From assembly GCA_937951345.1 (NCBI GenBank), contig CALFCF010000049.1, positions 1-45,015 on the forward strand: a DNA stretch of 45,015 nt, written 5' to 3'. The DNA is from an uncultured Granulosicoccaceae bacterium (lineage in GTDB: Bacteria; Pseudomonadota; Gammaproteobacteria; Granulosicoccales; Granulosicoccaceae). Numbering within the stretch: position 1 is the first letter of the stretch; every line of letters begins with the position of its first letter. The position numbers and the translations under genes are program-made. This document shows positions 26,927 through 40,933 of this stretch, one piece after another. Below the pieces are notes generated by a model. The model was given only the letters and a program-made list of their open reading frames with translations. It ran no database searches and had not been told where the DNA came from.

Positions 26927-28060
26927 TCAGTAGTCCAGTTCGAGATTTGCAAACTCAATAGGTGATTGTGGGTAGACAATGATGCTACCGGTCAGTAACG
27001 CCTGCTCAAGCGTGCCTGAAATAAACGGAACTTCTTCGTTCTGGGACCGAATTTTTATGCGCTTGAAGTGGATGCCTTTTGAATTCATCAGCTCTTTAAC
27101 AGCTTCCGCTCGTGCAGTACGTAGAATCTGATTGTATTGGCTATCAGCATGGTTGTCGTCATGCGCCTCAACAACATAGCCGAAACCGTTGCAGTCAGCA
27201 GTAAATTCAACATAGCGTTCAAGGATATTGTTAGCTTTTTTGGTTATTAGTGTTTCATTGGTATCGAACACGCCGTCCACCATCATCCAACTCTGCGCAC
27301 AATTGCGCGGCAGATCGCTGACTTTGGATACAAAATGAGGCATTTGCTCCTGCTGCGCTTTTTTGTAATCGCTAACGAAGTCTTCCAGTTTGGTTTTTAC
27401 GGCGGTTTTCAACCATTCGGCTCGACCGCTACAAGCATGGTGTTCGTCACCAGAGCCCCAGGTGCCGAGACGATACTCGCGCAGAGGTTGCCGAAGTATG
27501 GAGGCTGATTGGGTGAAACCGGCCCACAAGGATGAGCTGCAACGCGGTGGCAGATTACCGCAAAATCTGGTGACTCTGGCCATTTCCTCGGCTGTGAGTT
27601 TTGGCAAAGGTATGCTGACGACGTTGCCGTCTTCATCCACCAATTGGGTTTTTAGTTCCTCGATGTCCAGATGATCGTAACTGCAAACGCCACTGACTAC
27701 CGATGCACTGTCTTCGTCAAGCGTCGGGTAAATATTCATTATCGGTTGGCCCGGGCTCCAGCGAACTGACTCTTGATCAAGCAGGAGTATACCGGCGTCG
27801 GTGATAACAGTTTCAAGTTCTTCCCGGTACTCTTCGGTGAATTCAGCGCCGGTTTTCAACAGGGCTGATTCAACATTGTCGAGGTTCAGGTATATTCCTT
27901 CCAGACCCTGTAACGACATGTATTCGGGGTGGAAATTTTCGTTCCCGACAGTAATTGGATTCTTGCGGGGATACGGATAATTTCGATCACTGGCGTACAC
28001 CATAATGGCTTGTAGGCACAGTATCGACAACAATATATTGGCGAGCTTTCGAGCTTGCAT
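26927..28060 (-). CDS. Secreted protein with OmpA-like C-terminal domain
   Basis: A 377-residue exported protein with a signal peptide ending near VYASD. Residues about 30-260 match nothing I know; they contain several cysteines likely to form disulfides. Residues about 270-350 look like the peptidoglycan-binding OmpA-like domain: a long helix, YVVEAHDDNHADSQYN in place of VEGHTDxxGxxxxN, then RTARAEAVKELMNSKGI and a late strand. The typical RxG loop reads KIRSQNE, so ligand binding may be altered. It may be a periplasmic or outer-membrane-associated wall-binding protein. It diverges from the OxyR-like gene. Confidence 0.7.
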   Translation of the reverse strand: MQARKLANILLSILCLQAIMVYASDRNYPYPRKNPITVGNENFHPEYMSLQGLEGIYLNLDNVESALLKTGAEFTEEYREELETVITDAGILLLDQESVRWSPGQPIMNIYPTLDEDSASVVSGVCSYDHLDIEELKTQLVDEDGNVVSIPLPKLTAEEMARVTRFCGNLPPRCSSSLWAGFTQSASILRQPLREYRLGTWGSGDEHHACSGRAEWLKTAVKTKLEDFVSDYKKAQQEQMPHFVSKVSDLPRNCAQSWMMVDGVFDTNETLITKKANNILERYVEFTADCNGFGYVVEAHDDNHADSQYNQILRTARAEAVKELMNSKGIHFKRIKIRSQNEEVPFISGTLEQALLTGSIIVYPQSPIEFANLELDY

Positions 28061-29461: not shown

Positions 29462-31537
29462 TTACCGCGGCGCGTACACTCTCACGTAGTCAATCTCGAG
29501 CGCAGGATTCCCAAACTGTGCGATATCGTTATCGGTCGGGAACCGTTCTGACTGAGATCTGCCAAGCCCTCCGGCAGTAGTTGGAAAGTTTGTGAAGTTT
29601 CCACCTAGTGCGAGGTTCAATATGATGTACAGAGGTTCATTGTCTGCAGCCGGGTGGAATATCTCACTGGTTTTTACCCCATCAATTAACCACTCTACGT
29701 GACCGGGGCGCCATCGCACAGCATAGACATGATAGTCCTGGCTGTAGTCAGTGCCGGTGAAGATCTGGCCTGAAGGATCGGGGCGCAGAAAGTTTGCATC
29801 ACCTGCGTAAGACTCTGACACGTTGTCAAAAAAGTGCATGGTGTTGTAGATGTACCATGGCGCGTGGCCCAGATTTTCCATGATGTCGATTTCACTGCGC
29901 ATCGTGCCTTCATTGCGTCTACGCTGATGGAAAAGCCAGAATGCCGGGAAGGTGCCGACATGGTTAGGAATCTTGATACGCGCTTCGAAGTAACCGTACT
30001 TGCGGTTAAAGGAATTATGCGTAGCGAGTGCACCTGACAGGAAAGGTTGCGATGCCATTACATCACGCAATGGACCATAAAGCCGTCTTTCGTTTGTGCT
30101 TTTGAGCGGATTTCGTGTTGCACGGATTGCAAGTCGGGATCCGTCGAATTCAAACGGGTTGTTCAACTGCGGCAATAGCGCACGGTGCTCCGGATCTGCT
30201 GATTCAGTGCTGACGTAGAACTGGGCTTCGTTATTAATGATGCGGTATTCGTATCGCTCACCGTTGAACTCACCGTCCCAGCGAAAATTGGTTGTCCATC
30301 GTGCTGTGTTGACAGAATTACCATTGAATTCGTCACTGAATACCAGCTCATATCCATCACGGCCAACATCGGGTTGAGTCCAGCTTTGTGGATCGATCAG
30401 CCCATTGTCATTTGCAGGCACTGCAGGTGCCGCCTGCGGAGCAGGTGGTGCCACGGCAACAGACTGTGTAGCCTGCCCACCGGCATTAGCATTGTTGTTA
30501 ACGAACAGTTTTAAGGTATCCGACGCTGACGAATAGCGGTTGTCAGAGGTTATTGATTTAACTGACAGCGAATGATCGCCCCTCCACAAGTTCTCACTGA
30601 AAAACTGAGGCTCACCGGTAACGCCGGCCCATGTTCCATCCACGGTCACTTCGTATTGAGCTGCTGTTGGAATCCAATCCCATTCCCAACGAACAGTACC
30701 CGGTGCTACTTCAACGCCTCGCAAGCCGGTTGGTACTACAGGATTACCGCCGGTGTTGGTTTGTTGTGCTTGTTGCTGAGGTTCTGCCTGAGCTGAAGCC
30801 GCTGGCTGATTGGTGACAGCGTTTGCGTCGTTACTGACAAAATATTTCAGTGTATCGGATTGTGATGAGTAACGGTTATCGGAGGTAATGGATTTCACAG
30901 AGAGCGAGTGATCGCCACGCCATAAGTTTTCACTCACATACTGCGCGTCGCCGGAGACCCCGACCAGAATTCCATCAACCGTGACCTCGTACTGGGCCGC
31001 AGAGTTTATTGTGTTCCATTCCCAACGTACGGTACCCGGGGCGATCTCGGCAGCACGTAATCCTGTCGGAACGACCGGCGATCCATCAGAATTTTGTTCA
31101 GTCGAACTGCGTGTATTCGTATTTTGCTGACCACCACCGGTTGTTGCGACGATGGTTTCAGATAACTGGGAATAATTGCGTGCCGGATCGAAAGCACTGA
31201 TTTGAAACGTGTAGGTGGAGTTTGGCCCTACAGAGGTGTCATTGAAGCGCGTATCGCTGACTGTCGTGAAATAACCGCCATTGCGATAAACGTTATAGCC
31301 GTCAACGTCAGTGTCGTCCCAGGGTCGGTTCCAGGTGATGGTTATGGACCCATTATCACCGTTTGACCATCCCAGTCCGTTGACGATTGATGGACTCTGT
31401 GTGTCAGCGAATGCTAATGATGTGGTGGCCGATACAACCGCGATTGATACGATAACCGGCGAGGCTAGCGCCACGCAAACGCTCAGAATTCTTTTGTTCA
31501 ACATACTAATCGATTCAAGTTTCAACCGGGTATTCAT
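29462..31537 (-). CDS. Secreted multi-domain GH16 glycosidase
   Basis: A 691-residue exported beta-glucanase/laminarinase-type enzyme. The signal peptide ends near LAFADTQ; the start could also be Met12. Residues about 47-133 look like a fibronectin type III domain. Two near-identical 82-residue modules follow (154-235 and 266-347; PVVPTGLR...WEW...YEVTVDG...ENLWRGDHSLSVKSITSD...), probably carbohydrate-binding beta sandwiches, joined by Gln/Ala/Pro linkers. The GH16 domain (about 395-691) has EIDIME at 549-554, with Glu549 as nucleophile and Glu554 as acid/base. It converges with the OxyR-like gene and is preceded by a long non-coding region. Confidence 0.93.
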   Translation of the reverse strand: MNTRLKLESISMLNKRILSVCVALASPVIVSIAVVSATTSLAFADTQSPSIVNGLGWSNGDNGSITITWNRPWDDTDVDGYNVYRNGGYFTTVSDTRFNDTSVGPNSTYTFQISAFDPARNYSQLSETIVATTGGGQQNTNTRSSTEQNSDGSPVVPTGLRAAEIAPGTVRWEWNTINSAAQYEVTVDGILVGVSGDAQYVSENLWRGDHSLSVKSITSDNRYSSQSDTLKYFVSNDANAVTNQPAASAQAEPQQQAQQTNTGGNPVVPTGLRGVEVAPGTVRWEWDWIPTAAQYEVTVDGTWAGVTGEPQFFSENLWRGDHSLSVKSITSDNRYSSASDTLKLFVNNNANAGGQATQSVAVAPPAPQAAPAVPANDNGLIDPQSWTQPDVGRDGYELVFSDEFNGNSVNTARWTTNFRWDGEFNGERYEYRIINNEAQFYVSTESADPEHRALLPQLNNPFEFDGSRLAIRATRNPLKSTNERRLYGPLRDVMASQPFLSGALATHNSFNRKYGYFEARIKIPNHVGTFPAFWLFHQRRRNEGTMRSEIDIMENLGHAPWYIYNTMHFFDNVSESYAGDANFLRPDPSGQIFTGTDYSQDYHVYAVRWRPGHVEWLIDGVKTSEIFHPAADNEPLYIILNLALGGNFTNFPTTAGGLGRSQSERFPTDNDIAQFGNPALEIDYVRVYAPR
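30494..31078 (-). repeat. Duplicated 82-codon module inside the GH16 gene
   Basis: Coding segments 30830-31078 and 30494-30742 encode almost the same 82-residue module, separated by a linker of about 30 codons. The DNA differs mainly at synonymous positions, suggesting a duplication kept by selection on protein sequence. Confidence 0.85.
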
Positions 31538-34097: not shown

Positions 34098-34254
34098 TTT
34101 TTTTAAAAATTCTCCGGCTAAAAATAAAAGCCTGCGATCGAATACTATCTCATGTGCACTTATTTCCGTTGCATTCGTTTCTGCTGACGAATAAATCAAA
34201 ATCGGTTACCGATCGTTACCAATCTGCTTATTGGCACCGCAGTTATTCAGTGGC

Positions 34255-37200
34255 CTACCATTCCCATTTGTAGCTAAGCGTAACGACGGCATTCTGCCGG
34301 AAATTGGTATCAAACGTTTCGTTGAATCCCCAGTTGTTGTACTCAAGCGAGAATGTATTTTTGCGCCAATTGTTGTAGCCGAATCCGTATGCCCAGGACG
34401 TGGGGCCACCTTCCAGTGGCTGCGTAATTAACGACCGAATAAACCAGTTGGGTCGCGGAGCCCAGGAGATCAGCCAGGTGAGTGCAAGTTCTGAATTGGC
34501 TGATTTGTTCAGTGACAGTGAACTGTTCAGATTTTTCTCATCAAGGAATTGGTGCTTAAATTTTCTCGTCAATGATACAACTGCATTCTCCAGATCAAGG
34601 CCGTCACTGGGTGAGAGCGGGTTCCAATTGTTTATCTCAAATCCCCAAGATCCTGGTCGCCAGTCATCGTACCCAAGTCCCCACGTGTAGTTCACAGGGT
34701 CATCAGAATTGTTGATCGTAACCGCAGAGCGCAAAAAGAAGAAACTATCCTTGACAGGTTTCCATGCAACCGAGGAAGTCAGGGAGTAGTGGTCTTCGTT
34801 GCCGAACTCCTGTTGCGTGTTGTTCAGAGCAATGGTGCCTGAGAATCCGTGAGAATGATCGTCGTCGGCGTCTGGCAGGTGTGGAGGAACATTCGCAACC
34901 GGTGACAATCCGTTTGCATTGCTGGAGGGTGTCGTCACGTATATGGGAGTGTCAACAGCGGCCGCGACTGTTGGTGCTGCCTCTGAAAATGAATTGTCTG
35001 CGTTGCTGTTGTCTGGTCGTATTGATGTAACGGCCGGTAGGCCCGGCTGAGTTTGAGAAGCGATCAATTTTCCACCGTTTGTTACTGTCGCCTGATTTGT
35101 GTCAACACCTGCTAATGCAAAGTTGGCGTATTGAGCTTCACCGAATATACGGAATGCATGGCGTCGTTTTGCCGCGCGGGCAGCAGGTGAGATATCGGCT
35201 GATATCCAGTATGCAAATGCTGTTTGCCAGGAGGGACTGTCGCTTACAGATGCGCGTTGCCTTGAGGCGAGCACGTGCCACATTCTGGCACGTGACACCA
35301 GGTGTGTGCCTGATATTTCTGTGCGAGCCAGTCTGTCGTGGGTTTTTATCTTCGTATTCGTGGCTAGTTGGGTAAGCGTTGCGTCTCTAAGTGATTCCGC
35401 GTCGAGTTGATGCGAAGATACGCTAAGCCGGGTAGCCCCATTCGAGCCTAGCGAGAGTGTTTTTCCGTTTAGCATTTCTGGCCGTTGATCCACATATTCA
35501 AGCAGGTTGCGATACTTGTTAAGCGTCGCCGTCAGCGTATGGGCTATTTCGACCGGCTGTTGCAATCTAGATTCAACGGAGTTTCTGGCGTTGCCGTCAA
35601 CGCCTTCGGGGGTTAATGATAATGCAATGCTTGAATGCGTCTGCGTTCGGTTTTTCAGATTGTCGTTTAGCAGATGGTCTTTTTGCAGGTAACTCAAAAT
35701 TCTGAGTAAGCCCCGAGCCGTAGGATGATGGTCTGTGAATTGACCGGGTCTGTCGGGTTTATCTGTGTCGATCGTGTGTTTGATTGGGTAACTCAGATGT
35801 GCAATGCCAAATGCTGATAATGTCAACAACGCAGTATCTGATGCGGGACCATTTTCTTCGCGGTGATCAATAATTCGTCGTATCGATTCGCCACGCAAAC
35901 GAGTGAATCGATGGCGTTCAGAACCGAGATCTTGTGGGTGCTGGTCGATTAACGGGTTGAAACCACTATCGTTGTTTGGCGCATCAGGGCGAAGCACAAT
36001 AGTTGCGCCGCTCGGAATGGGTGCGTTTTTGTCGATGTATGCGAGCAGTCTCTTTAAGGCGTCGGTTCGTTTGGCATCGGATGTATTGCTGGTGATGGTT
36101 TGTTCTTCGGACAGTTCTGTGTGTGCTACGACGTTTGGGTCAGGTTCTGCTGTTTCGATTTGTCCCGTTTGGGCTGATAGGACGGCTGATTGGCCGAGCG
36201 ACTGGTTAGAGTCTGAAGGTGGCTGCACGGTTGCCGCAACAGGGTGCTGTACTGATTCGGTTGAAATAGTGGTGTGTTGGCGCGATCGCTGTACGCGCGT
36301 ACTTTTTATCGTGTTGATCCGTTTCGCCCGTTGTATAGGGATAGAATCCTGCTTTTTGTGCGCGAATACGGCCAGTCTGCTTGGCTGTGGCCCTATGAAC
36401 GAATCGTATACGTCGATATAAGTACCAGAGGCCGGTGTTTTGTTAATGCTGAAAGTAACCAGTCGTTCAACGGCAGATTGCGATGTCAGCAGTTGACTGG
36501 CGATTTGCTTCAAATTTTGTTCGCGCGTAGGTTTACCACTATTCAATGTATTTCTAGATGCTCTGACTCGTGCAGCTTTTAACGCGTTCATCTGCTTTTT
36601 ACGTTGTTTCGTCCTGTATTCAGTATCTGAAATCGTGGTGACTAAGCGCTCAGTCGTGGTTTCAGTAGGATTTTTCGAAAAGAATTTTTTCTGCGATTGA
36701 GGCTTGGCATCAAGCACGATGGTAGCGCTGGCAAGCACGGGTTCATTTTTATCGATCAGCGGAACACGAGCGGTGGATTGTTTAGGGTTGTTCGCAATGT
36801 CACGCTGTGTAGTGTCATTGATGTCAGCTTCCACCGTTGCGATATTACGTTTGGCAATTTCAGCAAACCGTCTCGACTCGACTACACGTTGACGTTGCGC
36901 AGGCTGCATTCTTTTTTTCTGCAGTTTTTCGAGTTGTATAAGTTCCAGAACTTTGCCAACGATGGAAGGCTCAAGAAATGATGGCTGGACATTGTGTTTA
37001 CGTGACAGTTGTACGTATCGCTGTTTGATTTTATTGATGCGCTTATTTTTGCCTCTTTCAAAGAGTCGTTGCTCAGTCTTCAGGCTGTTAATCCTGGCTT
37101 TTAGATTAATATCCGATGTTTGCGGGTTCAGGATCGACTGTATCGGTTTCTCTTGTTCATTTGTTGTGTAAGCATCGTTCGTAAAAGAACTGTCGCTACC

Positions 37201-38664
37201 GGTATTCGTACGTAATACCGGTTTCTCCGTGAAGTTGCTAGTGCCTGAATTTTCATGTGCTGAGAGTATTTCTGTTGTTGCTGAATCGAGTCTAGCGTTA
37301 TCTTTAAAAAGCGAATTTTCAGCTATAAAATCCTTTTTTGCGGAGGTGCCTTGCAGTTCTCCGATAGGTGAGTTTTTCTCTGATGCGGCCGATGTTCCCT
37401 TGGCTTCCAGGTTGCTGGAAAGGTTGTTTTGCAATGGTTCGTTTGTATTCGCTATTGCATCTTCTGTAGGCACTGCCGCTGATGACGCAGGTTGTGGTTT
37501 TGTATCAGGATTTAGTTGCAAATTTGATTGCGCTGGAGTCGCTGCGTTATTTGGCACACTTTCCGGTAAGCTGGGAGTTGTACCGGAACTGTCTGTGTTT
37601 GTGAGGGCTACAGAGCTGCGCTGTACATCAAATTGCGTCGCGTTAACTTGATGTGCTGGAACTTGCTCTGCAGTAGTTACTGGAGTGGCAGAACAAGTGG
37701 CTACGGACTGAAACGGATAGACGTCAACCCGTGATAAATTGCTTTCAATTCCCTTGAGACGCGTCGGACCAAACGACTTTTTACGATGGTACAAAGTGCC
37801 GTTATCCGGGTGCGGGAAACATTGGGCCGTATAGAGCTCCCAGAAACGTTTTCCACGAAATAATCGTGTCTGTGATTGCGTGGTTAGTGCACCAGGCACG
37901 TAGCGCGGTATCGCAGTTTGACTGTTGATGCCGTAAGTGGCCGGTATGTCGAATCCCAGTCGATTCATACCCATCCAGCCGGTTATTGAATTCGGGGCGG
38001 CAATAGTACGCGCGATAGCATTGCGATTTTTTTCGGTCGTCAAATTAAAATAGTTGTCATCATCCTGTATGTGACAGTAATTCCATGACAACAACAATTG
38101 TTCTACCGGGTTTTTCAGGGTCGGGTATCGGGTAACGGTATTCAGCAGCTCGTGTACCAAAAAATCGAACGTTGCCGCATAGAGGGCAGGAGACTCCTCA
38201 GTACCGAGCCATTCGTCGGGAAGACCATAAAGTTCTATACCTTGATGACTGATTCGATCAATCAGTTGATTGGCATGATCTTCCGACGGTGCACAACCGA
38301 GTTGGGTGGCCGCTTCTAGTAACGGTGAGGGATTGGCAATGCCTGCCTTGCCTGTCATTGCTTCGACAACGACCGGTCGATGTTTGTCTATATCAGCGTG
38401 AGGGACTCCGGAGCTTGCGACGAATAGTAGGCAACCAATGACTAACGGTTTGTAGCCCTGTGGTAGACAGCGTGTGATTATCCGGAGAGCGCGTCCGTAT
38501 ACTTGCGCTAACGACTCTTGCGCTAATAACCGTGAGTGGATGTTTGCAACAAAGCCCTTTGCGATAAATGATGCCTGATGCCTGAATCTAGAGTCTTTTA
38601 CCGTGCAATCTGTGCGTGGCGGGCGAGAAGAACAGGCGTTCCGATTTATTCTTCGGGGCCACAT
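34255..38664 (-). CDS. Giant envelope protein with repeats and C-terminal barrel
   Basis: A 1469-residue protein of unknown family. A long basic N-region precedes a signal-like hydrophobic stretch (about 72-90, cleaving near VPHAD). An N-terminal cysteine-containing domain follows (about 100-330), then a Ser/Thr/Asn/Gln-rich disordered part (about 340-560). At least five degenerate modules follow with a core such as IDKNxPxxSGATIVL, at about residues 633, 734, 870, 931 and 1056, interspersed with Lys/Arg-rich helices. The last 200 residues alternate aromatic strands (WGLGYDDWRPGSWGFEINNW; GYNNWRKNTFSLEYNNWGF) and end YKWEW, as outer-membrane beta barrels do. The start overlaps the end of the DUF3131 gene by 19 bases. 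I infer an outer-membrane export or anchoring component of the three-gene operon. Confidence 0.8.
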   Translation of the reverse strand: MWPRRINRNACSSRPPRTDCTVKDSRFRHQASFIAKGFVANIHSRLLAQESLAQVYGRALRIITRCLPQGYKPLVIGCLLFVASSGVPHADIDKHRPVVVEAMTGKAGIANPSPLLEAATQLGCAPSEDHANQLIDRISHQGIELYGLPDEWLGTEESPALYAATFDFLVHELLNTVTRYPTLKNPVEQLLLSWNYCHIQDDDNYFNLTTEKNRNAIARTIAAPNSITGWMGMNRLGFDIPATYGINSQTAIPRYVPGALTTQSQTRLFRGKRFWELYTAQCFPHPDNGTLYHRKKSFGPTRLKGIESNLSRVDVYPFQSVATCSATPVTTAEQVPAHQVNATQFDVQRSSVALTNTDSSGTTPSLPESVPNNAATPAQSNLQLNPDTKPQPASSAAVPTEDAIANTNEPLQNNLSSNLEAKGTSAASEKNSPIGELQGTSAKKDFIAENSLFKDNARLDSATTEILSAHENSGTSNFTEKPVLRTNTGSDSSFTNDAYTTNEQEKPIQSILNPQTSDINLKARINSLKTEQRLFERGKNKRINKIKQRYVQLSRKHNVQPSFLEPSIVGKVLELIQLEKLQKKRMQPAQRQRVVESRRFAEIAKRNIATVEADINDTTQRDIANNPKQSTARVPLIDKNEPVLASATIVLDAKPQSQKKFFSKNPTETTTERLVTTISDTEYRTKQRKKQMNALKAARVRASRNTLNSGKPTREQNLKQIASQLLTSQSAVERLVTFSINKTPASGTYIDVYDSFIGPQPSRLAVFAHKKQDSIPIQRAKRINTIKSTRVQRSRQHTTISTESVQHPVAATVQPPSDSNQSLGQSAVLSAQTGQIETAEPDPNVVAHTELSEEQTITSNTSDAKRTDALKRLLAYIDKNAPIPSGATIVLRPDAPNNDSGFNPLIDQHPQDLGSERHRFTRLRGESIRRIIDHREENGPASDTALLTLSAFGIAHLSYPIKHTIDTDKPDRPGQFTDHHPTARGLLRILSYLQKDHLLNDNLKNRTQTHSSIALSLTPEGVDGNARNSVESRLQQPVEIAHTLTATLNKYRNLLEYVDQRPEMLNGKTLSLGSNGATRLSVSSHQLDAESLRDATLTQLATNTKIKTHDRLARTEISGTHLVSRARMWHVLASRQRASVSDSPSWQTAFAYWISADISPAARAAKRRHAFRIFGEAQYANFALAGVDTNQATVTNGGKLIASQTQPGLPAVTSIRPDNSNADNSFSEAAPTVAAAVDTPIYVTTPSSNANGLSPVANVPPHLPDADDDHSHGFSGTIALNNTQQEFGNEDHYSLTSSVAWKPVKDSFFFLRSAVTINNSDDPVNYTWGLGYDDWRPGSWGFEINNWNPLSPSDGLDLENAVVSLTRKFKHQFLDEKNLNSSLSLNKSANSELALTWLISWAPRPNWFIRSLITQPLEGGPTSWAYGFGYNNWRKNTFSLEYNNWGFNETFDTNFRQNAVVTLSYKWEW

Positions 38665-40283
38665 GTTTCACATAGAAGCGCAACTTCATCGTCTGCCTCA
38701 TCCTCTGTGGGCTGTTTCCGGATGTCGGATAGTATGTTTAACTGCGCGCCGCATTTTTCGCAGATTTTTGCGAGAGTTTCGTATTTCTTGTATAACAGTA
38801 CACTCAGAATCACACCGTTGGTGTTGGCTGTTGTTACGTCGTTGTATCCGCCATTTTCATAGACACCTGAATACCACCCCAGGTTCTCGTCAAACGCACT
38901 ACCGATTGTTGCAAGCAAAACTTTGCTATATTCGTCATCCGGGAACAACATCGCCATAGAAAGTGCTGCTTTTGTTGATACAGTTTTAAGATTGTTATGC
39001 TGCGCTCCTGTTTCAGTTATTGTGTTAAACGGCAGACCTGATGTGAAAATGGTGTTGTACAAAAACCAGGGTTCCTGATTAATGTTATCCTCTGATATTG
39101 CTGTAACAATACCTGTTTCCTTCCAGCGTCTTTTCTGAACTTCAAATATATTCTTTAACAACTCCGTGTTGATACTATCTGTTCCGAGTTCCATCGCATC
39201 CATTGCGTAAGATTCAGTCACGACGTAGTTGTTAGCATGATAAATTCTCGGGTCTCGTGCATCATGCGCGATCTTTACACCAAGTATTTCTGTGTCAGCG
39301 CGATGTTTATTCTCGTAGGACATTGCTGTGTCAACCGGGAAGCCTGCTCTACCAAAAATTTTGCCGGCATACTGTTCGTAACCAAGACGACCTTCTTGTA
39401 AGTTCAGTATTTCTCCAGTCAGTGGATCCTTTGCCATGCCATACATTTCATCATTCTGAATCAGCTCAGAGTAATCCCATCGTGACAGTGCAGAATTCGC
39501 CGGGTTGTGGTATTGCGGATGCATGCATTGAAGTGTGTCCATCCACGAAATTAGGCGTGCAAGATCGAGTACGGATACGCCAATGCCACCCTCAACGGCA
39601 TTGTTACCGTAATCAACCATTTCAAGTGTATGTGTGTTGTAAACCTTGTTGGGTGCTTTGCCGTCGAAAAGCTTAATGCGTTGCATGGAGTTCATAAGCT
39701 TCATGATTGCATCGTCAAATTCTTTTTGACCGATAAAGCCAAAGTCTCTGGCAGCGAGAAAAGCTGCCAGTGCCGATCCTGTATCCCACATGGTTGTCGA
39801 CGGGTATCCGTGAACTGAATTCACCAGACCGGTTTCGGCGTTGTAGTTATTCTCGAAGTACTTCCAGGCGATGCGTGCAACACGCATGTCGGCTTCACTG
39901 AGTTGTTTTTTCTCGACCAGACACTGGTTGTGCTCTCCACCTGATTCGAAAAGTGAGGCCAATGTGTCGTCCTTGCTGGTGACGCGTTGATTATTGTTGG
40001 CCGTAGCGGCACTCAATAGAGGCGTATTCGTGATTTGCGTCGCGCTGTTATATGCTGTTAGGTGATAACCCGTAGTTGAAGAACTGGCAACTATTGTCGG
40101 GTTGGCAAGCGTTCTAATGCCGGAGATCAGGCCAACGACCAATACCGCAACACCGATCGCACCTGTACCGATTAGAAATGCTGATGTAAAACGTTCGCCA
40201 TTTAATAAGCCTGCGAACTCGCTGTTCGCATTTTTATGTCGTCGTGACTGGCTTCCGACCAAGCTTCGTTTTAAACGGTTCAT
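38646..40283 (-). CDS. DUF3131 membrane protein with C-terminal Cys4 motif
   Basis: A 545-residue protein with one transmembrane helix (about 33-57), so the main part is probably periplasmic. Residues about 120-500 match what I know of DUF3131, an alpha/alpha barrel-like family akin to six-hairpin glycosidases (ENNYNAETGLVNSV, TMWDTGSALAAFLAARDFG, YGNNAVEGGIGVSVLDLARL, YENGGYNDVTTANTNGVIL). Carbohydrate processing is therefore likely but unproven. The tail has CEKC (508-511) and CETC (538-541), a zinc-ribbon-like pair that is unusual here. It overlaps the upstream coiled-coil gene by four bases and the downstream giant gene by 19 bases, so translation is coupled. Confidence 0.85.
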   Translation of the reverse strand: MNRLKRSLVGSQSRRHKNANSEFAGLLNGERFTSAFLIGTGAIGVAVLVVGLISGIRTLANPTIVASSSTTGYHLTAYNSATQITNTPLLSAATANNNQRVTSKDDTLASLFESGGEHNQCLVEKKQLSEADMRVARIAWKYFENNYNAETGLVNSVHGYPSTTMWDTGSALAAFLAARDFGFIGQKEFDDAIMKLMNSMQRIKLFDGKAPNKVYNTHTLEMVDYGNNAVEGGIGVSVLDLARLISWMDTLQCMHPQYHNPANSALSRWDYSELIQNDEMYGMAKDPLTGEILNLQEGRLGYEQYAGKIFGRAGFPVDTAMSYENKHRADTEILGVKIAHDARDPRIYHANNYVVTESYAMDAMELGTDSINTELLKNIFEVQKRRWKETGIVTAISEDNINQEPWFLYNTIFTSGLPFNTITETGAQHNNLKTVSTKAALSMAMLFPDDEYSKVLLATIGSAFDENLGWYSGVYENGGYNDVTTANTNGVILSVLLYKKYETLAKICEKCGAQLNILSDIRKQPTEDEADDEVALLCETCGPEE

Positions 40284-40933
40284 CTTTGAGTGGTTCCTTC
40301 ACTCTCAAGTACCGTAATTGCTCTGGTCAGAACGCTGTGAATAGCACCGACGGAATTGTCGGTATGGCCTTCGTTCCATTCGCCGGCAAGGATATCAATG
40401 GGCGCCATCAATGATTGCAGGGTTTGTCTTACTGCATCGTGTTCTGTGCTGGTGCGCCAAATAACTTCCTTCGTTGACAATAACTTTTCTGCAGCTGAGG
40501 ATGGATCATCGTACTTGGACAATTCTGCGTCGGTAACAGTGTCAATAGTCTGCTTCAGCTCACTGGTTTTATTAAGTCGCTCGACTTGCCCCTTATAGTT
40601 GGCAATCTCTGCCTTCAGGCCATTGATTTCAGCATTGTGGTTGGGGTTGGCAGGCGTCGCAGCGGCTATGGCAGGAGGGACTTCGTTGACTTTGGTTTCT
40701 AGTGTGCTCTGACGTTTTTCCAGTGAAGCCACTGTGTTTTGCACAGACGACATGGCACCCTGATAACCGGCTTGCGCCTGATGCAGGGCAAATTGTTCAT
40801 GGCGCATACCCGCCTGTTGCCATAGCAACCAGACGACAACCAGTATTGTTGCCAAATTCAGGGTTTTGAGTATCATGCGAGCAAGATTGACGCTGTCCAG
40901 AGAAAATATCGGCAACAGCTCGCGCAACATCAA
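40280..40933 (-). CDS. Single-pass coiled-coil membrane protein
   Basis: A 217-residue protein with one transmembrane helix (about 22-40, ILVVVWLLW) followed by a long periplasmic coiled coil (about 45-135, with heptad-like SVQNTVASLEKRQSTLETKV) broken by an Ala/Pro/Asn linker near 88-100. The last 70 residues are helical with no known domain. It is the first gene of the operon with DUF3131 and the giant barrel protein. A structural role, bridging the inner-membrane DUF3131 protein and the outer-membrane component, is my inference from topology and gene order. Confidence 0.8.
   Translation of the reverse strand: MMLRELLPIFSLDSVNLARMILKTLNLATILVVVWLLWQQAGMRHEQFALHQAQAGYQGAMSSVQNTVASLEKRQSTLETKVNEVPPAIAAATPANPNHNAEINGLKAEIANYKGQVERLNKTSELKQTIDTVTDAELSKYDDPSSAAEKLLSTKEVIWRTSTEHDAVRQTLQSLMAPIDILAGEWNEGHTDNSVGAIHSVLTRAITVLESEGTTQR

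Follow-up and report, generated by a model that had tools for sequence, protein, structure and literature searches.

The window analysed here is a 45,015-nucleotide contig of an uncultured Granulosicoccaceae bacterium (GCA_937951345.1, CALFCF010000049.1), which carries on its minus strand a trio of overlapping genes. These encode a small coiled-coil protein (CC), a protein with a DUF3131 domain and a very large exported protein with a C-terminal β-barrel (F4); adjacent genes overlap by exactly 4 bp and then 19 bp (Table 1). The coordinates of the open reading frames (ORFs) and Pfam agree with an initial annotation of the locus, which had further proposed that the trio forms a trans-envelope complex for making, exporting or anchoring a surface polysaccharide. 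Its observation is confirmed and its interpretation partly supported: the trio appears to be part of a system, but an incomplete one, as a synthase, a second DUF3131 protein and partner-switch regulators lie outside it.

Table 1. Features of the trio and its surroundings in the window
Feature	Positions	Strand	Description
CC	40280-40933	minus	217 residues, TTG start; one-pass inner-membrane protein; ORF call
DUF3131 protein	38646-40283	minus	545 residues; PF11329, E 7.5e-124; AlphaFold predicted local distance difference test (pLDDT) 83; SGL-clan fold matches
DUF3131 domain	38784-39884	minus	profile and conservation
E297	39393-39395	minus	candidate catalytic residue, by analogy with GH189
E303	39375-39377	minus	candidate catalytic residue, by analogy with GH189
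E398	39090-39092	minus	candidate catalytic residue, by analogy with GH189
F4, exported barrel protein	34255-38664	minus	1469 residues; ORF and orthologues in relatives
F4 N-domain	37675-38337	minus	four conserved cysteines (C124, C197, C282, C324); orthologue comparison
F4 linker	34870-37674	minus	~935 residues; length and sequence differ among relatives; disordered in orthologue model
F4 C-terminal 12-stranded β-barrel domain	34258-34857	minus	alignment, orthologue model, fold matches
Terminator-like hairpin	34200-34214	minus	putative, by consensus scan alone; just 3' of the F4 stop
GH16 protein	29462-31537	minus	secreted, 691 residues; fn3-type and GH16 domains, Pfam E 3.7e-18

Fold and candidate catalytic residues of DUF3131

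The match to PF11329 (DUF3131) spans residues 134-500 of the protein, which also has a long hydrophobic helix at residues 30-53. In the AlphaFold2 model the domain is mostly helical, and most of it exceeds a pLDDT of 90. The 15 best PDB entries for this model all belong to the β-1,2-glucanase (SGL) clan, with Z-scores from 35.3 to 23.7, and the next family follows at 21.4. The best match is the GH189 structure 8wy1 (Z 35.3, root-mean-square deviation 2.9 over 351 residues, 18% identity); further clan members among the matches are GH144 enzymes (Z ~30-31) and GH162 (Z ~24). Sequence comparison led to the same enzyme, 8wy1 being the top PDB match (E 5.7e-6) of a profile built from 32 DUF3131 proteins. 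Judged by its predicted structure, DUF3131 is an (α/α)6 glycosidase-type fold of the SGL clan, which upholds the six-hairpin glycosidase relationship stated in the initial annotation and assigns a testable enzyme class to a Pfam family whose function is unknown.

Within the domain, E297 and E303 (QEGRLGYEQ) and Y409 are invariant and E398 (SEDN) is nearly so, and the conserved glutamate and tyrosine residues follow the order of E1356, E1442 and Y1456 in GH189 (PMC10834661). The residue criterion of the SGL clan is a conserved glutamate acid, phenylalanine and tyrosine, which are E239, F286 and Y367 in XcSGL. The profile alignment of DUF3131 with GH189 confirms the first 85 columns only, the second half of the domain failing to map, and a weak GH144 alignment favours E303, not E297; the catalytic residues may therefore be among those listed, with an ambiguous mapping.

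The barrel protein F4 and its partner CC

F4, whose sequence ends in ...VVTLSYKWEW, has no match to any Pfam or NCBIfam family; in particular, Pfam scans of the window's F4 and of a 563-residue orthologue from a related locus (L038) found neither a porin nor a TPR family. About 74 residues precede its signal-like hydrophobic segment (38664-38440, minus strand), and no in-frame ATG, GTG or TTG lies nearer to that segment. The leader is of similar length in a relative from the genus of the window.

The barrel was modelled with AlphaFold2 on the L038 orthologue, from a 27-row alignment that included the window's barrel, to which it is ~47% identical over the barrel. In line with the C-terminal barrel that the initial annotation had expected, the model shows twelve antiparallel strands at residues 370-562 with a pLDDT of ~90; its N-domain is confident in part and its linker disordered. 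In PDB, KdgM (Z 13.3) headed the matches to this barrel, followed by three autotransporters (EstA, AaaA and NalP), FapF, VhGalP and a designed 12-stranded barrel, with nearly all of these scores no more than 1 Z unit apart; the number of strands is thus informative, the barrel family is not.

The description of F4 as a giant barrel protein fits its C-terminus, but the barrel takes up only the last ~200 residues (~195-200 by comparison with orthologues) and the bulk of the protein is linker. Complete orthologues with all parts range from ~520 to 1469 residues, while in Cocleimonas and one Thiotrichaceae genome F4 has 235-281 residues and is nearly the C-terminal domain alone (235-255 residues and no linker in Cocleimonas). 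The size of F4 is therefore that of its linker, not of its barrel, as these lengths and the variability of the linkers indicate.

Linker repeats differ between loci, from TolA-like EKLAAEKAAAEK in L039 to KPEA in L045. Basic repeats of the type KRLxxxKxxRVxxSR were seen, among the loci examined, only in the genus of the window, with four copies in the window (residues 539-795), there of the form KRINxxKxxRVxxSR, and at least five in a relative (L035, residues 568-900); they may bind an anionic polymer or peptidoglycan.

In CC, coiled-coil-like sequence follows a hydrophobic segment (about residues 26-44), and the C-terminal motif IWRxS...LQSLMAPIDILA is conserved across relatives. Pfam and NCBIfam scans gave no reliable family, and matches to SMC, FPP and similar families were rejected as low-complexity coiled-coil matches. 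A gene for a membrane segment and coil directly precedes the DUF3131 gene of the trio (DUF3131a) in 10 of the related loci, from Granulosicoccaceae, Thiotrichaceae, Cocleimonas, Crenothrix and one family outside the class. The initial annotation had assigned the crossing of the periplasm to CC; a spanning part is indeed likely, but the F4 linker is at least as probable a spanner.

Gene order, synthase cluster and distribution

In 19 of 20 assessable loci, the gene next upstream of the barrel gene is DUF3131a, at a distance of -28 to +127 bp; L071 is the exception. Homologues of all three genes do occur together, as the notion of a unit implied, and the order CC, DUF3131, barrel recurs in Granulosicoccaceae, Thiotrichaceae/Cocleimonas, Crenothrix and another class. 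In Crenothrix polyspora (L077) and in genome G106 (L097), the trio is part of a single same-strand run of GH2-like, GT2, second DUF3131 (DUF3131b), CC, DUF3131a and barrel genes. In many Granulosicoccaceae, the DUF3131a-barrel pair adjoins genes for a response regulator-SpoIIE protein, STAS, RsbW, GT2 and DUF3131b, sometimes together with Acyl_transf_3 and a small membrane protein. The genome of the window has this synthase cluster on a separate contig (C100), with response regulator-SpoIIE, RsbW, GT2, DUF3131b and a Kelch/galactose-oxidase-like protein. A search of the same genome for an acyltransferase found none, which is not decisive as the genome is incomplete.

The GT2 protein resembles cellulose synthases, with E 1e-33 to BcsA chains in PDB and E 6e-65 to CelA, below the curated cut-off. 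It retains DDG-, DAD- and SED-type motifs and has QRFKYAGG in place of the QxxRW that cellulose synthases carry. The one copy scanned for a PilZ domain (L038) had none, only GT2-type Pfam families. The presence of this BcsA-like synthase beside the trio in relatives speaks for the link to polysaccharide production or export made in the initial annotation.

Two side observations concern the synthase cluster. Next to or near DUF3131b, L034 (12124-15420, on C100), L041, L048 and L049 encode a large Kelch/galactose-oxidase-like protein that has fn3 or CBM domains and may oxidise the same glycan. In L045 (15626-18424), a 932-residue ORF contains Acyl_transf_3-type and DUF3131 regions in a single reading frame and may represent two partners that have fused naturally.

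Among 398 sampled genomes of the phylum, the barrel profile matched 11 from 5 genera, and DUF3131 was present in all 11. Counting every PF11329 match as DUF3131 was rejected, since many were weak and lay in ~2,850-residue frames that are cyclic glucan synthases, several of them with the Glycoamylase domain found in such enzymes; with these cross-hits set aside, DUF3131 was clear in about 20 of the 398. The hypergeometric p of the co-occurrence is ~2e-16, uncorrected for relatedness among phylogenetically non-independent genomes. The trio arrangement is not due to chance.

The recurrent gene set, which we call the kit, also resides on plasmids. On pDSJ10 of Pantoea stewartii it is accompanied by an unannotated 299-residue protein that matches the barrel profile (E 2.5e-19), on a Salmonella enterica plasmid by an unannotated 299-residue protein in the corresponding place, known by its size and position, and on a plasmid of Paracoccus seriniphilus by a 506-residue protein that BLASTP matches to one of barrel type. 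The enterobacterial kit includes OpgC. The DUF3131 operons of the Pantoea and Salmonella plasmids also contain a globin gene (L103, 14804-15238; L131, 14801-15235), followed by response regulator and GH2 genes; a role in gas sensing is possible.

Among the other genes of the window, the GH16 gene follows the F4 gene at a distance of 2.7 kb; the best NCBIfam matches of its product are the glycanase EglC and κ-carrageenase, both below cut-off. A homologue is also near the trio in a second genome of the genus (L054), but we rejected GH16 as a member of the unit, because two opposite-strand genes intervene and the proximity recurs only within the genus. An OmpA-domain protein is encoded 6 kb beyond the barrel gene (26927-28060, minus strand), and an OmpA-like gene directly follows the barrel gene in the relatives L055, L056, L057 and L063. 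A promoter scan gave no match exceeding chance level.

A proposed polysaccharide system and its relation to known ones

In our reading, to which we would give a probability of roughly 0.6, the trio serves a synthase-dependent polysaccharide system, probably for a glucan, as its arm in the periplasm and outer membrane. The BcsA-like GT2, encoded on C100 in this genome, would polymerise a glycan, probably a β-glucan, and extrude it across the inner membrane. In the periplasm, the glycan would be trimmed, transferred or cyclised by a pair of membrane-anchored DUF3131 enzymes, with the one-pass CC as their putative common scaffold in a physical complex. The N-domain and long linker of F4 may cross the periplasm to the 12-stranded barrel, which would release the chain to the outside. 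Control would probably be exerted by a SpoIIE phosphatase/STAS/RsbW partner switch, as the genes beside the synthase suggest.

This reading draws on the CC-DUF3131a-barrel order conserved in distant taxa, on the single same-strand runs with GT2 and DUF3131b, and on the joint occurrence of barrel and DUF3131. Further support comes from the similarity of GT2 to cellulose synthase, from the GT2 cluster in the genome of the window, and from the SGL-clan fold of DUF3131 and its sequence link to GH189. A 12-stranded barrel that resembles oligosaccharide porins, though not these alone, and the Acyl_transf_3 or OpgC and partner-switch genes in the same clusters also fit it. Several points weigh against this reading. 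The synthase is unlinked to the trio in the window, GT2 and DUF3131 occur without a recognisable barrel in some alphaproteobacterial kits, and the catalytic residues of DUF3131 cannot be mapped with confidence. To our knowledge, all KdgM-type porins characterised so far serve uptake. Further, the known SGL-clan enzymes are mostly degradative, and most are hydrolases (PMC12102758).

An unlikely, though the most durable, alternative is that the kit makes a periplasmic glucan of the osmoregulated or cyclic type without surface export, F4 mainly tethering the envelope layers through its long and variable linker. OpgC, which succinylates periplasmic glucans, would fit such a product, but the F4 of Cocleimonas consists of little beyond the barrel, so that tethering is not the conserved role and the conserved barrel suggests a pore. 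That this pore belongs to a degradation and uptake set, importing foreign β-glucan oligosaccharides for cleavage by DUF3131 in the periplasm, appears less probable still. The uptake porins KdgM, NanC and VhGalP are among the best barrel matches, the hydrolytic bias of the clan points the same way and a GH16 gene is close by in the window; yet this gene is confined to the neighbourhood within one genus, genes for sugar transporters or cytoplasmic catabolism do not recur next to the trio in related loci, and what does recur is a synthase, with acyltransferase or OpgC. It is improbable that F4 is an autotransporter-like surface protein displaying its N-domain and linker outside, with DUF3131 as a partner in glycosylation or acting on the wall, since, for all the tied matches to NalP, EstA and AaaA and a passenger-like stretch ahead of the barrel, short versions of F4 lack a passenger, the linkers are often simple repeats more like periplasmic spacers, and a synthase is again the recurrent partner.

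Beyond the export arm itself, we tentatively envisage a separate and widespread secretion system for a β-glucan, perhaps β-1,2- or mixed-linkage and acylated, with paired SGL-clan DUF3131 transglycosylases, a tethered 12-stranded barrel for export and control by partner switch rather than by cyclic di-GMP (c-di-GMP), extending to human- and plant-associated Enterobacterales. If the polymer is a β-1,2- or related glucan, the system would link cellulose-type synthases to a clan so far tied to cyclic and other β-1,2-glucans and would show another way than c-di-GMP to control the secretion of a polysaccharide.

With Bcs, Alg, Pga and Pel, the kit has in common a BcsA-related GT2, a periplasmic glycan-acting enzyme and an outer-membrane barrel with a periplasmic N-terminal part. 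The linked BcsA-related GT2 of Bcs-type systems is found in relatives, whereas it is unlinked in the genome of the window. Differences to Bcs are the QRFKYAGG motif in place of the QxxRW of Bcs-type synthases, partner-switch genes instead of PilZ (in the copy scanned), periplasmic enzymes of a different clan, and an F4 that has no TPR family in Pfam and is 12-stranded in the orthologue model. Bcs-type outer-membrane barrels have 16-18 strands. The trio system therefore resembles a synthase-dependent polysaccharide system and is not a member of Bcs by the tested features (no PilZ, no TPR). DUF3131 shares its fold and local sequence similarity with GH189 (8wy1), but is a stand-alone, membrane-anchored protein beside a BcsA-like GT2, whereas GH189 is embedded in a ~2,850-residue synthase; PF10091 had no match in the genome of the window. 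The barrel of the F4 orthologue has 12 strands in the model, the number found in KdgM and NanC, but F4 has no Pfam match, most members add an N-domain and linker, and the tie with autotransporter barrels, the designed barrel and FapF precludes a family claim.

Our literature search found no named system for the kit, as the initial annotation had supposed, although most subscription papers lie outside its coverage and a name may exist. Its parts have, however, already been listed. Block 3b of Klebsiella pneumoniae contains a cellulose-synthase-like enzyme, OpgC, an anti-sigma antagonist and three DUF3131 proteins (PMC12974863), and SGI3 of Salmonella contains OpgC, a cellulose synthesis protein, a β-galactosidase, an anti-sigma antagonist and a serine phosphatase regulator (PMC3401170); in the accessible parts of both sources these are given as gene lists, without demonstrated function or mention of a barrel. 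The related kits on the Pantoea and Salmonella plasmids carry in addition a stand-alone 299-residue protein, barrel-type or unannotated. The present analysis adds an outer-membrane component to a kit so far given as gene lists in Klebsiella and Salmonella, and finds this kit in Pantoea, in Paracoccus and in bacteria of marine origin.
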